Shown here in pieces: positions 9,011 through 62,301 of a stretch of 64,000 nt of DNA. Position numbers and translations under genes: made by a program. Numbering within the stretch: position 1 is the stretch's first letter; every line of letters starts with the position of its first letter. Source of the DNA: Bacteroidaceae bacterium (lineage in GTDB: Bacteria > Bacteroidota > Bacteroidia > Bacteroidales > Bacteroidaceae); NCBI GenBank assembly GCA_017962495.1, contig JAGCVH010000010.1, positions 1-64,000 on the forward strand, read 5' to 3'. The notes beneath the pieces were generated by a model that worked only from the letters and a program-made list of their open reading frames with translations, was not told the DNA's origin and did no database searches.

Positions 9011-9082
9011 GCACAGTTGATTGGGCGTTTGATGTCGGGCGTTTAAAGTTACGGCCAGACCCAATAACCAACACTCTCTTAC

Positions 9083-9225
9083 AAGCCTTAGGCCTTATGC
9101 ATTTAAGCCTAAGGCTTTTTCTTTTGAACCTAAGTTCAATCATAATCGAACCTATGTTCATTCGACCTCGAACCTAAGTTTAATCAACCTCGAACCTAAG
9201 GCCTTATTTCTTCGAGCCTAAGCCT
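9083..9225. repeat. 22-bp phased palindrome array A (7 units)
   Basis: The 460-bp gap after panB holds seven 12-bp near-palindromes starting at 9083, 9105, 9126, 9148, 9170, 9192 and 9214 (spacing 22, 21, 22, 22, 22, 22). Units include AAGCCTAAGGCT, GAACCTAAGTTC, GAACCTATGTTC and GAACCTAAGGCC. The rest of the gap carries the promoter of the next gene, with no other feature seen. Confidence 0.85.
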
Positions 9226-9391
9226 TCATCGCTTTATGTATTTCATCACAAGGATAGAACAAGTCACTGTTCACCTTTTAGAAGTCATTTTTATCCCCGT
9301 GGACATTTTTTGAAGTGTAGGGATGTGTGACAAAAACGTATAAAAATGGCGATTTTCCTTGTAATTCGTAGCATTTTTAGAATATAATTGC

Positions 9392-26524: not shown

Positions 26525-26535
26525 TATTGATAATT

Positions 26536-28770
26536 ATGAACACATTCAAATGTATATACAATAAGGCATACGGCTTCCTTTGCGCCCTCTGCCTTCTCTG
26601 TGCGCTCTGTGCTACATCCTCGTGCGAGGATATGTTAGAAAAGGGTAACGAATATGTCATATATGCCGACGACCATTTGATTTCCGACCCTGCCGACACC
26701 GTTACCTCTGTCATTGGCATACTCAACAAGCTGCAGGGCATAGCCATCCGCAACAATCTGTTTGGTGAGTTGCGTGCCGACCTTGTCAATGTACGCACTA
26801 ATGCCACCACGGACCTGAAGGCAATTGCCGACAATGATGTGGACGACGACAATGCCTACAACGTGCCTCGCGACTACTATGCTATCATTAACAACTGCAA
26901 CTATTTCATTGCCAATGCCGACTCGCTTGCTGGTAACTCAGGGCGCAACGAGCGCTATTTTGCAGCTGAGATAGCACAGGTTCACAGCATTCGTGCCTGG
27001 ACCTACTTACAGCTCGTTCTACTCTATGGTCGTGTGCCATTTGTTACCGAACCTGTACTTACCAAACTCGAGTCGGAAGCACAGTATCCTATGTACGACA
27101 TCCAGCAAGTCTGCGACTACTTCATTCAAGACCTGAAGCCATACTATGGTCGCTACTATCCCGACTATCAGTCTTTCGAGAGCATCGACCCGCAGATGTG
27201 CTTCTTCCCCACACAGGTTGTTATGGGTGACCTCTACCTTTGGCTTGCCGCAACTCGTCACGATCAGGAGGCAGCCCGTCAGGCAGCCAAGTCCTACTAC
27301 GACTATATTGTTTGGGACCTCAGTGGTAAGAAGAAGTTGTACACGAGCTCGCAGCGTGCTTATTGGGATGAGCAATCGCTCTATTCCAAGACCTTCAATC
27401 GTCCCAATGGTAACCTTTCTTACAACCCTGCACAGTCATGGGGAGCTGAGAACAGCACTGCCATTACTTCGATACCCATGGACTCGGCTGCAGCCGACGG
27501 TTACTTCAACCAGTTGCGCTATCTCTACAACACCCAGCATAACAATGACTTTATTGAAGCCAGCATTGAGCCTTCCGATGCTCTTCGTGAACTGTCTCAG
27601 TCACAGACCTATGTGGGTTACGACTCACAGAATCAGGTAGTCAGCGTTACTGCCGATTTGTTCACCGACGAACAACTTAAGGAGGGTTATTTAGGTGATT
27701 TGCGTTACCAGGAAAACTATTCAGAGTCCACCATGAAGTGGAATGCTCAGGAGGTTTATTCCCAAAGCATCTCGAAGCATAACTTCCAGCACATAGGCGT
27801 CTATCGTGCTTCGCAGCTCTACCTGCGTTTGGCCGAAGCCCTCAACTATGCTGGCTATCCTCGTTTCGCACGACAGATTCTCACCATGGGACTCTCCAAT
27901 TATGTCATCCAGTATGAGGTGCAGCCTTACTATCTTGCTCCGTCGGACAGCACATTCCTGGCATACTTCGACTTTAACACCACCGACTTTAAACCCTACG
28001 CACAGAACTATTCTCCCACGCGTAATGCCATGGGCATCGTAGTTGGTTATGTTCCTCAGCCTCGCTCCATACAGGAAATCAATATGTGGGGCATCCATGC
28101 ACGTGGTTGTGGTCTGCCTTTCCTCGACGACGACTATGTTCCTCTCTCGGAGATCGACAGCACGGCATATCCTCATGAACTTGAGGAGAACATTGGCACG
28201 CGTCCCGTTAAGTCTTCCTACGACTATCCCGTTGCACCCAAGGTTGTTACTAAGCCCTCTACATGGGACCTCTATCCCAACGTGGTTGTCGATATGGAAA
28301 CCTACAAGAGCATCCATCCTTCGCTCAAGACCATCGATGCCGTCTATAGCCGTTATGTCAAGAACGACTCTGTGGCCAAGTATAATACCTACATCACTGA
28401 GACGCTCCCCATCTATGAGGCACAAGTCGATTCAGTCGATGCCGTATTTAATGCCGACAGCGAGGCCTATCAGGCACGTTACGACGAGTTCATAGAAGCC
28501 TTCAACGAATGGCGTCAGAGCGTCTATGGTGCTTCGTCCTTCGTCGAAGGAGAACAAGCCGTTGTTGACAAGGCCATCCTCGACGAGCAAGCTCTTGAAC
28601 TCGTCTATGAAGGCAATCGCTTCTACGACCTCATGCGTCATGCTTATTGGAACAACGACAACTCCATCATGTCCGATGCTGTCAGCAAGCGCGATGCCTC
28701 TGTTGGTTCCAAGCTTGCAGACCGCAACAATTGGTTCATCTCCTGGAAGGGTAAAATCGGAGTAAAGTAA
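26536..28770 (+). CDS. SusD/RagB-like lipoprotein (second copy, long)
   Basis: A 744-aa outer membrane lipoprotein, longer than usual SusD (~500-650 aa). The lipobox is SSC-EDML after a Cys-rich hydrophobic segment. SusD features are the N-terminal helices (RYFAAEIAQVHSIRAWTYLQLVLLYGRVPFV) and the C-terminal LDEQALELVYEGNRFYDLMRHAYW. An inserted C-terminal part around residues 590-680 is rich in Tyr, Asp and Ala (SVDAVFNADSEAYQARYDEF). The ATG at 26536 was chosen over an upstream in-frame TTG. It is the last gene of the operon and is followed by a strong terminator. Confidence 0.9.
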   Translation: MNTFKCIYNKAYGFLCALCLLCALCATSSCEDMLEKGNEYVIYADDHLISDPADTVTSVIGILNKLQGIAIRNNLFGELRADLVNVRTNATTDLKAIADNDVDDDNAYNVPRDYYAIINNCNYFIANADSLAGNSGRNERYFAAEIAQVHSIRAWTYLQLVLLYGRVPFVTEPVLTKLESEAQYPMYDIQQVCDYFIQDLKPYYGRYYPDYQSFESIDPQMCFFPTQVVMGDLYLWLAATRHDQEAARQAAKSYYDYIVWDLSGKKKLYTSSQRAYWDEQSLYSKTFNRPNGNLSYNPAQSWGAENSTAITSIPMDSAAADGYFNQLRYLYNTQHNNDFIEASIEPSDALRELSQSQTYVGYDSQNQVVSVTADLFTDEQLKEGYLGDLRYQENYSESTMKWNAQEVYSQSISKHNFQHIGVYRASQLYLRLAEALNYAGYPRFARQILTMGLSNYVIQYEVQPYYLAPSDSTFLAYFDFNTTDFKPYAQNYSPTRNAMGIVVGYVPQPRSIQEINMWGIHARGCGLPFLDDDYVPLSEIDSTAYPHELEENIGTRPVKSSYDYPVAPKVVTKPSTWDLYPNVVVDMETYKSIHPSLKTIDAVYSRYVKNDSVAKYNTYITETLPIYEAQVDSVDAVFNADSEAYQARYDEFIEAFNEWRQSVYGASSFVEGEQAVVDKAILDEQALELVYEGNRFYDLMRHAYWNNDNSIMSDAVSKRDASVGSKLADRNNWFISWKGKIGVK

Positions 28771-28792
28771 TTTAACGATTACATATAAACAG

Positions 28793-28818
28793 AAAAGCGG
28801 CCTCGTGCCGCTTTTTTG
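28793..28818 (+). terminator. Terminator of the FAS1/SusCD operon
   Basis: Perfect 9-bp stem AAAAGCGGC / GCCGCTTTT, 5-nt loop, then T-run. It marks the end of the seven-gene transcription unit. Confidence 0.9.
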
Positions 28819-28881
28819 TTTTAATCACGTTCGATAGATGTCGCATGTTATGTCGTGGGGATGACAAGGCATACCCCGCCT

Positions 28882-29091
28882 CGTGCATAGGCCTTCCAGA
28901 ATTAGACCTTAGGTGCTCGGCGTTTGCGCCTTAGGCCTTCTTTCGTAACACCTCAGGTCCTCCGCTGGAACGCCTCAGGTCCTCCGCCTGAACGCCTAAG
29001 TGTTCTTCAATGAAGACTTAAGTCTTACAGTCGAAAGACCTAAGTCTTACAAGCATAGGACCTATGTCTTTTATTGGAAACGCCTAAGCGA
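28882..29091. repeat. 22-bp phased palindrome array B (10 units)
   Basis: Ten 12-bp near-palindromes start at 28882, 28904, 28926, 28948, 28970, 28992, 29014, 29036, 29058 and 29080, every step exactly 22 bp. Unit sequences differ but stay largely self-complementary: GCGCCTTAGGCC, ACACCTCAGGTC, AGACTTAAGTCT, AGACCTAAGTCT and GGACCTATGTCT. The array lies in the 521-bp gap between two convergent transcription units. Nothing else was found there. Confidence 0.92.
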
Positions 29092-29291: not shown

Positions 29292-30416
29292 CTATTCACC
29301 AAAAATCTCTGCAAGCTTCGTTTTCAGTATCTCGCCCTCCAAATCTGTAGAAAGAACTTTGCCGTTGGGAGCAATGAGGACAAGAGTCGGAACTGCTGTT
29401 ATTCTATAGAGGTCTGAAGCTGCAGATCTGTTGGTCTTTGATGCTGCGGTTTCGTGTACTTGTAACCACGGGAGATTATGCTTCTCTACTGCTTTGCGCC
29501 AACTGGCACCATCTTCGTCTATGGATATGCCGATGATGCGTAGCCCCCGATTTGCATACGACTCATGCAGTTGTTTCATCATAGGAAAGGCGGCAATACA
29601 TGGGCCGCACCACGATGCCCAAAAGTCGAGAAGGACATACTTACCCCGACCTGCATATTCAGAGAGAAAATGCAAGACACTGTCAGTTGTTTCAGCCTCA
29701 AAATCACGGAAAATATTACCTGTTATTTTGTGTTTTTCTTGTAACCCCCAGTACTGTTTCCAAACATGACTCATAGCAGGATGGTGGGCATACGGGGCAT
29801 CTTCGTGCATATACGCTCCAAACTCTTCTAAAGGGATGTGCATGTGATTGACAAATAGATAATATGCGGGCAGATAGTTGTCGAGGTTTTCACGATAACG
29901 CTGTGCCCTAAGTACGTAGATGGAATCCCATGCCGCATCATAACGACGCACCCACATACTGTCATTAGTTGTAGTCATTGGAACTTCGCCAGAACACATC
30001 TGCATGACCCTCATTTGTTCATCGTCTGTGAGCTCGCCCCACATTGCCTTTTCTATCTTCTGTTCCTCCTTCTGGATTTGGAGAAAGCGACGTTGCATGT
30101 CGCTCCCCGTCGCGTCGCAAGTTTCGAGATTGACATGCGTCGGTGTTTCTTCGATGATGAAATGGAGGTCTTCTATTTGAATGAATGTATGGCGCGGAAG
30201 GTAACCTGCGACACGAAACTGCCCATTCTCAACGGGAACAAGGTGGTCGCTACCCCACGGAGCGCATGGCCACCATGTGATGCTGTCAGCCTCCGTGGCC
30301 GTTGTGCCTGTAATTACGAAATCGATGCTGTCTTCCACGATGGGAGTGAATGTCTGTCCCTGCCCCGCCATTGCGACGAGGGCGAGCAGTGCGATGATGA
30401 TGGTTTTCCTGTTCAT
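29292..30416 (-). CDS. Secreted TlpA-type thiol-disulfide oxidoreductase
   Basis: A 374-aa exported thioredoxin-fold protein. The signal peptide (ALLALVAMAGQGQ) is followed by a DUF4369-like beta domain (residues ~30-110), a helical linker, and a C-terminal TlpA/AhpC-TSA domain with catalytic WCGPC (CGPC at residues 270-273) and the cis-Pro loop (TAVPTLVLI). It probably acts in the periplasm, reducing or exchanging disulfides. It lies 37 nt downstream of a related gene in the same direction, so the two probably form an operon. The substrate is not evident. Confidence 0.88.
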   Translation of the reverse strand: MNRKTIIIALLALVAMAGQGQTFTPIVEDSIDFVITGTTATEADSITWWPCAPWGSDHLVPVENGQFRVAGYLPRHTFIQIEDLHFIIEETPTHVNLETCDATGSDMQRRFLQIQKEEQKIEKAMWGELTDDEQMRVMQMCSGEVPMTTTNDSMWVRRYDAAWDSIYVLRAQRYRENLDNYLPAYYLFVNHMHIPLEEFGAYMHEDAPYAHHPAMSHVWKQYWGLQEKHKITGNIFRDFEAETTDSVLHFLSEYAGRGKYVLLDFWASWCGPCIAAFPMMKQLHESYANRGLRIIGISIDEDGASWRKAVEKHNLPWLQVHETAASKTNRSAASDLYRITAVPTLVLIAPNGKVLSTDLEGEILKTKLAEIFGE

Positions 30417-54049: not shown

Positions 54050-54149
54050 GGGCTTAGGCTCGATTGCCATCGAACATAGGTTCGATCGTCCTCGAATATA
54101 GGTTCGATTGTCTTTGAACATAGGTTCGATTGCCGGAAGGCCTAAGGCT
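54050..54149. repeat. 22-bp phased palindrome array D (5 units)
   Basis: Units at 54050 (GGGCTTAGGCTC), 54072 (GAACATAGGTTC), 54094 (GAATATAGGTTC), 54116 (GAACATAGGTTC) and 54138 (AGGCCTAAGGCT), every step exactly 22 bp. The 10-nt spacers are similar (GATTGCCATC, GATCGTCCTC, GATTGTCTTT). It starts 7 nt after the DUF6057 stop. Confidence 0.88.
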
Positions 54150-60821: not shown

Positions 60822-60856
60822 ACAAAGCCGAGCAATTCATTTGCTCGGCTTTGTCT
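60822..60856 (+). terminator. Terminator after ilvE
   Basis: Perfect 13-bp stem CAAAGCCGAGCAA / TTGCTCGGCTTTG with a 5-nt loop, followed by TCTTTAG repeats. Confidence 0.85.
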
Positions 60857-60957
60857 TTAGTCTTTAGTCTTTAGCCTTTAACCTTTAACCTTTAACCCGT
60901 TAACCTGTTCGCTCGGCCCGCAGGGACGCTTGCGTAGCAGAGTGGAGCAAGAACCTG
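60853..60957. repeat. Tandem TTTAG/TTTAAC repeat with GTTCGCTC core, 3' side of mrp
   Basis: TCTTTAG copies then CCTTTAA copies, then CTGTTCGCTC, a GCTTGCGTAGC stretch and AGCAAGAACCTGTTAACC. A related element is on the other side of mrp (62062-62162), in the same orientation. Confidence 0.6.
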
Positions 60958-62162: not shown

Positions 62163-62203
62163 TCAATAGTGTTTGGACTCAATCACCTAATACCTTCGTG
62201 GAC

Positions 62204-62287
62204 TGCCATAGTATGGCACTCACTTCTGCCACAATATGGCAGTTACCTCTGCCACAATATGGCAGTCATTACTGCCATAGTATGGCA
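62204..62287. repeat. 23-bp phased palindrome array E (4 units)
   Basis: Four 15-bp palindromes at 62204, 62227, 62250 and 62273, each 23 bp apart: TGCCATAGTATGGCA (perfect, first and last) and TGCCACAATATGGCA (middle two). The unit sequence differs from arrays A-D but the architecture is the same. Confidence 0.9.
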
Positions 62288-62301
62288 GTCGGCGTGACTC
62301 C

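Follow-up and report, generated by a model that had tools for sequence, protein, structure and literature searches.

The ten-unit array at positions 28882..29091 (array B) belongs to a genome-wide family of arrays in which a short core with dyad symmetry, CCTNAGG, recurs at exactly 22 bp. Within the genome the core is conserved relative to the spacers, and related species carry arrays of the same period built on cores of their own. Phased dyads are also associated with the upstream regions of genes for HU-HIG proteins. Judging from these patterns in the DNA, we favor, with modest confidence, the view that the arrays are cooperative sites for dimeric DNA-binding proteins, most likely HU-HIG proteins. 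The window analyzed here is a 64,000-nt stretch of a genome (G000) of 2.95 Mb in 104 contigs, estimated as 85% complete.

A scan of the window places array B as ten 12-bp units with starts at 28882 + 22i, without deviation from phase. A sequence-only reading of the window had described ten near-palindromes at exactly this spacing; the ten units and their phase stand, but two types of palindrome are present and the first unit fits neither. Unit 1 (CGTGCATAGGCC) is a poor dyad, with 2 of 6 pairs. Units 2–5 (28904..28981) carry the odd-centered 7-bp core CCTNAGG at 28907, 28929, 28951 and 28973, between differing flank words; they form 4, 4, 4 and 3 of 5 pairs about this center and just 1–2 of 6 about the center assumed in the earlier reading. 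Units 6–10 (28992..29091) have even-centered cores (CCTAAG, CTTAAG and CCTATG) with 4, 6, 5, 4 and 4 of 6 pairs, and include the 14-bp palindromes or near-palindromes AAGACTTAAGTCTT and AAGACCTAAGTCTT. Summed over ten units at 22 bp, the dyad score of 38 is the window maximum for periods of 17–27 (next best 34). In the shuffled controls that the earlier reading had called for, applied to the whole window with dinucleotides preserved, none of 200 shuffles reached it (mean 32.3, maximum 36). A simpler test is weak: the longest even-centered dyad run at 22 bp is 5, a length also found at period 25 and reached by 1 of 100 shuffles.

Array B, which like the other arrays has no assigned strand, lies where two genes converge. 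A SusD/RagB-family gene (26527..28770, + strand) points at it from upstream, and a thioredoxin-like (AhpC/TSA) gene (29292..30416, − strand) converges on it from the other side. Directly after the SusD-like gene, an inverted repeat forming a hairpin with a T run (28787..28821, + strand) looks like an ordinary intrinsic terminator distinct from the array. Three further arrays occur in the window: array A (9082..9235, 22 bp), with CCTNAGG units followed by GAACCTAAGTTC units; array C (54056..54143, 22 bp), with GAACATAGGTTC-type units; and array D (62203..62290, 23 bp), with four longer CTGCCATAGTATGGCAG-type palindromes of a different core.

Across G000, three CCTNAGG cores in 22-bp phase are matched 73 times per strand, compared with 0 for the reversed pattern, and the looser pattern of three CCTNNG at 22 bp gives 130 + 118 matches against 1 + 1 for its reversed control. 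The latter matches fall on 16 contigs at no fewer than 32 places, one of which repeats another, leaving at least 31 distinct; the genome may hold several dozen arrays, perhaps about a hundred. Pairs of CCTNAGG in 830 kb drawn from G000 and from its sister species G078 (rumen bacterium RUG14659) number 66, 42, 23, 12, 5 and 3 at 22, 44, 66, 88, 110 and 132 bp. No other distance from 8 to 139 bp reaches 3, and six control cores show no recurring distance in the same DNA. Between 14 and 30 bp, exact core pairs in the two genomes occur 66 times at 22 bp, twice at 21 bp and nowhere else; allowing one mismatch in one core yields 90 pairs at 22 bp, with 13 at 15 bp, 11 at 21 bp, 10 at 30 bp and 7 at 20 bp. 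For G060, a congener with a different core, allowing two mismatches in one core gives 62 pairs at 22 bp and none elsewhere from 14 to 30. Several core words coexist in G000, with TTGTACAA-type 22-bp repeats at L193:4141, L194:6768 and L189:16359.

The 24 arrays in the 830 kb of G000 and G078 occupy 9 convergent, 10 tandem and 3 divergent gene gaps, with 2 undetermined, while gaps of at least 200 bp in the same stretches comprise 26 convergent, 65 tandem and 22 divergent ones. Convergent gene ends are therefore modestly favored. In G060, 20 arrays are divided among 7 convergent, 9 tandem and 1 divergent gaps, with 3 undetermined. The density in the stretches of G000 and G078, one array per 35 kb, leaves six-base-core arrays out of the count and is biased upward because these stretches were picked on contigs with hits. 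We also considered regulation specific to each locus: ten flanking or neighboring proteins have no common theme, and such a role is not indicated because array positions are not conserved between non-sister genomes, only 1 of 59 orthologue pairs beyond the sisters having arrays on both sides.

We then compared units with one another within each genome, taking units whose two neighbors match the core, disregarding each unit's own core, and aligning each with its left neighbor. Among 78 such units from G000 and G078, neighbors differ at 3 of 468 core positions (0.6%) versus 426 of 1170 spacer positions (36%), and the center base N of CCTNAGG varies like the spacer. Among 27 units from G060, the differences are 14 of 270 in the core, mostly at the two center bases, versus 119 of 324 in the spacer. 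Core and phase are conserved; long palindromes are not. The 7-bp cores are separated by 15-bp spacers of a shared vocabulary, and the words beside the core are drawn from a small set (CCTT 60, TCTT 47, TTCG 37, TGCA 37, GCTT 19 and others). CRISPR loci have long identical repeats and unique spacers of about 30 bp, and on this comparison of repeat layout we agree with the sequence-only reading that array B is not one.

The arms flanking the cores do not preserve self-complementarity. Equal 4-letter words on both sides of the core occur in 2 of 151 units, compared with 11.6 expected, and arm complementarity across the spacer (2% of 133) is not beyond chance; in G060, equal words occur across the core in 1 of 71 cases and across the spacer in 0 of 46. 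These counts argue against hairpins, and they overturn the earlier suggestion that the units drift in sequence while staying self-complementary, the core being nearly invariant. Six-base cores carry equal flanking words more often than seven-base cores (23/132 versus 4/130), and the G060 core has an asymmetric AC/GT center in 68 of 71 units. We do not claim selection against palindromes, because an asymmetric ancestral unit can explain the lack of equal arms.

Four orthologous arrays could be compared between G000 and G078. Their lengths differ by about 66, 22, 0 and 22 bp, that is, by whole units; one alignment also has a gap of 1 bp within an edge unit, and in another, 43 bp have been inserted next to a unit. 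Substitutions between the sisters affect 15 of 139 core and 35 of 240 spacer positions, a difference that is not significant (P = 0.35), with 111 of 692 in intergenic flanks. The evidence for constraint is thus the comparison within genomes.

Of 139 genomes of the genus, 10 have CCTNAGG arrays, two of them at a single place; of 301 genomes sampled from the family, 5 do, three of them at a single place. Both tallies include G000. A sample of 59 other genomes from the phylum has none. Similar 22-bp arrays are nonetheless present in related genomes, as the sequence-only reading would have it. Those of congeners use other cores, each nearly confined to one of 18 genomes: 22-bp pairs of CAACRYGTTG number 255 per strand in G060, 1 in G010 and 0 in the other 16; pairs of ACTTAAGT number 19 in G208, 3 in G000 and 0 in 16; and pairs of GARCRYGCTCC number 46 + 30 in G010 and 0 in 17. 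G010 also has pairs of 18-bp TTTATCACGCGTGATAAA-type palindromes at 22 bp, in slightly changed copies (L223:481, L226:767 and L231:3772).

A scan free of any chosen word, which counts clusters of similar dyads at fixed lags, has 22 bp as its top lag in G000 (26 clusters), in G010 (9) and in 20 congeners (9). It is not the top lag in G078 (11 clusters at 22 bp, 20 at 14 bp and 13 at 21 bp) or in G324 (2 at 22 bp), and 20 other genera give 8 clusters at 21 bp versus 6 at 22 bp. Lags of 14, 21 and 28 are raised partly by 7-bp microsatellites, and the counts of one such scan include runs of N from the loci L261 and L279. Heptamer microsatellites (CTTTAGT and TAACCAT, for example) lie at 60849–60906 of the window and in several intergenic stretches of congeners, with lag peaks at 14, 21 and 28. 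Thirteen genomes of other families, 8 of the same class (2 clusters) and 5 of other classes (0 clusters), show no 22-bp excess in about 31 kb of intergenic DNA, a sample of low power. Beyond the phylum, 22-bp arrays of the CCCTAAGGG type are seen in Candidatus Spyradenecus and in a Kiritimatiellota genome; having been found by searching for that pattern, they offer no independent evidence on the core. In Candidatus Spyradenecus (L051–L127), a dispersed element consists of a constant head of the AATAAGTCC...CATTTCCGAAACCCTTAAGGGTTT type and then 22-bp CCCTTAGGG units, 3–5 in total, and looks as if head and units had been copied as a whole.

HU-HIG proteins form a branch of the HU/IHF proteins that is expanded in Bacteroidetes, which prompted us to search for the corresponding Pfam family, PF18291. 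Members have an HU domain fused to a winged helix-turn-helix, an Ig domain or a glycine-rich motif. We know of no target site for them; the description line of PF18291 names none, and our literature search found no paper joining HU-HIG and Bacteroidetes. Matches to PF18291 number 3–21 per genome among 14 from the family and 0–3 among 10 from outside it, an excess confounded with phylogeny, and the counts include ordinary HU because the model also matches HU proteins (in 9 of 14 control genomes, E. coli among them). Among array-bearing genomes, G000, G078, G060, G010, G208 and Candidatus Spyradenecus all have matches, and 3 of the 15 genomes reached through pattern loci have none (G489, G479 and G483). 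The first of these, RUG12190, has several CCTNAGG 22-bp arrays (L079, L086, L114, L126 and L129), and is either a counterexample or an incomplete genome. The HU-HIG domain was confirmed with Pfam in nine proteins, one of them from Spyradenecus (31.0 bits, cut-off 26.2).

Phased dyads are more frequent upstream of HU-HIG genes than of other genes. The set consists of 40 genes, a part of the total (9 of 13 matches in G000, 6 of 21 in G078, 7 of 12 in G060 and those returned elsewhere), and was reduced to 38 by dropping L358 and L359, whose contigs stop no more than 20 nt beyond the match; two Spyradenecus genes (L374 and L386) were kept apart from it. Within 420 nt upstream, dyads phased at 22 or 23 bp occur at 15 of the 38 (12 at 22 bp), and 8 of these 15 have three or more dyad pairs; the remaining 23 regions have none. 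The same holds for 58 of 1306 other genes (P = 1.4e-10), controls that come partly from stretches picked for arrays, and for 39 of 318 genes whose upstream gap is 200 nt or more (P = 9e-5). Downstream of HU-HIG genes, phased dyads are found in 0 of 36 cases. Each other lag is seen in 0–4 of the 38 regions, lags of 16, 17 and 20 in 3 each, versus 17, 11 and 14 of the 1306 controls. At five genes (L222, L342, L343, L346 and L360), the upstream signal is weak or is accompanied by scores at other lags. G000, G078, G324 and G488 all show the excess, with differing cores, as do, by eye, G010 and G060; this upstream association makes HU-HIG proteins the leading candidate binder.

Individual genes illustrate the pattern. 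Upstream of L350 in G000, three CCTAAGG units at 22 bp are followed by eight AAGACGTACATCTT units in phase to within half a base; the latter word recurs in four units upstream of its orthologue L367 and five upstream of its paralogue L184, with one base changed in one unit. L352 is preceded by four 23-bp AAGTATACTATACTT-type units, L340 (G324) by four CGAACCAYGGTTC units, and L355 (G000:C101) by CTCCTAGGCGTT units at 22 bp. By eye, L357, L362, L363 and L347 (G060 and G010) are preceded by two or three copies of the word typical of their species; of these four genes the scorer caught L363 alone. In Spyradenecus, a genome of a different phylum, a CCTNAGG array of four units lies about 240 bp ahead of one of two HU-HIG-like genes, the one that encodes the protein confirmed with Pfam; the locus L374 in that genome contains two dyad pairs at 22 bp and others at 23, 25 and 26. 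The L355 protein has a C-terminal helix-turn-helix-like segment, with weak DeoR/MarR matches below the Pfam cut-offs. In G060, HU-HIG genes of very similar score lie on C3, C12, C41, C56, C57 and C68 (L358–L363), several at contig ends, and the L362 and L363 proteins are nearly identical over their shared part, as if these genes had recently multiplied and broken the assembly.

Conserved dyad cores, an exact two-turn phase, varying spacers and non-complementary arms together fit dimers placed side by side on one face of the DNA, and two traits of an array of dimer sites, a fixed helical phase and a core conserved over its spacer within the genome, are both observed. The sequence-only reading had proposed same-face binding of a dimeric protein, and the exact phase and the conserved core support it; the binding itself we infer. 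Each 22-bp unit would offer its dyad core (CCTNAGG or the 6-bp forms) to a dimeric protein, and successive dimers, two turns apart on the same helix face, would bind cooperatively, forming a short nucleoprotein filament on a platform of double-stranded DNA between genes. The binder would most likely be one or more HU-HIG proteins, from this expanded branch of the HU/IHF superfamily. HU-HIG genes with upstream arrays would regulate themselves, core sequence and protein specificity would change together between species, and the arrays may insulate or limit transcriptional read-through at gene ends.

The same platform could instead serve a dimeric protein of another family, with an indirect link to HU-HIG, whose genes would be among its targets, a reading we consider somewhat unlikely. 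Phase and core fit it equally well, the phased dyads upstream of 58 of 1306 non-HU-HIG genes and the RUG12190 arrays without a PF18291 match speak for it, and the excess at HU-HIG genes (15/38), repeated with different cores across genomes, speaks against it. A different origin is offered by dispersed repeats: REP elements are biased to gene ends, and the arrays are mostly placed after gene ends. REP families are described in PMC3733652 as short, extragenic and palindromic, present in many copies and differing between lineages, and in these respects the arrays resemble REP/BIME sequences with their RAYT enzymes. The arrays could then have been spread by a mobilizing enzyme, their phase and core being relics of copying; many dispersed copies, a common word vocabulary, positions not kept beyond sisters, the Spyradenecus copies with a constant head that look wholly copied, and Y1_Tnp matches in G010, G166, G208 and G324 would suit this account. 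We judge it improbable, however. Unlike REP/BIME sequences, the arrays have an exact 22-bp period, a core of 7–10 bp and divergent spacers, a GTAG/CGTC tag is missing from the cores found, and their arms lack complementarity. The Y1/RAYT family (PF01797), matched in 4 of 12 genomes, has 0 matches in G000, G078 and G060, the genomes with the largest numbers of arrays found; neighboring units diverge very unequally in core and spacer, and the four arrays compared between G000 and G078 were inherited in place.

Transcribed stem-loops or terminators at gene ends, a reading we regard as very improbable, would account for the folding of array B, which beats shuffles (z of −4.0 and −5.6), although we discount these scores because tandem near-palindromes are expected to fold well. 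According to PMC8040213, Bacteroidetes have palindromic candidate RNAs, most of them predicted terminators. As for intrinsic terminators, outward A or T runs flank the G060 arrays at 14 of 40 sides versus 3 of 40 in the control direction, an excess confined to that genome; T runs at G000 and G078 arrays (4 of 48 versus 4 of 48) show none. Neither core (2/151) nor spacer (2% of 133) is flanked by arms complementary beyond chance, a distinct hairpin with a T run already lies ahead of array B, an Rfam search of the window matches one tRNA only, and an RNA has no need of an exact 22-bp phase. Least credible of all are neutral 22-bp satellites arising by slippage. Arrays grow and shrink by 22 bp at a time, neighbors on the same strand resemble each other, and core and spacer substitution rates between the sisters do not differ significantly, as such satellites would predict; against them stand the uneven decay along the unit (0.6% of core versus 36% of spacer positions differing between neighbors) and the recurrence of one period with unrelated cores in several species.

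Among known systems, phased binding sites of the kind we favor for the arrays have precedents in the met boxes of MetJ and the plasmid centromeres of ParR and TubR, where short dyads at a fixed period are bound side by side at one or a few loci. The arrays are likewise short dyads at a fixed period, but they occupy at least 31 distinct places in one genome and their core differs between species. ParB/parS systems have few sites per chromosome, unlike arrays at 32 or more places on 16 contigs; the partition role raised in the sequence-only reading is not borne out, the dozens of arrays being spread over many contigs and mostly downstream of at least one gene. The DNA uptake sequence dialects of Neisseriaceae and Pasteurellaceae are clade-wide and species-specific, built of single dispersed words. 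The arrays too are clade-wide with species-specific words, but these sit in phased intergenic arrays, and lone CCTNAGG occurs in the window scarcely more often than expected (20 times versus 14). To our knowledge, no known system unites exact phasing with species-specific words at dozens of loci, and a search of titles and abstract openings, with few subscription papers, found no account of species-specific palindrome arrays phased at 22 bp.

A broader and more tentative possibility is that HU-HIG proteins mark chromosomes throughout the family, coating species-specific arrays at gene ends as insulator-like filaments. Word and specificity would co-evolve quickly, giving each species its own dialect and possibly telling its chromosome from incoming DNA, and the system may have entered gut Lentisphaerota and Kiritimatiellota. 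If so, many gut and rumen Bacteroidales would have an unrecognized layer of chromosome organization whose recognition word varies by species, the expanded HU-HIG proteins would gain a concrete and directly testable target, and the arrays would provide a natural series for studying joint specificity change in a DNA-binding protein and in the dozens of sites it binds.

Many of the contig-scan matches listed, from Streptomyces and other distant taxa, may be unrelated tandem repeats. Fourteen stretches from a viral collection (L155–L168) also match the pattern of three phased CCTNAGG cores.
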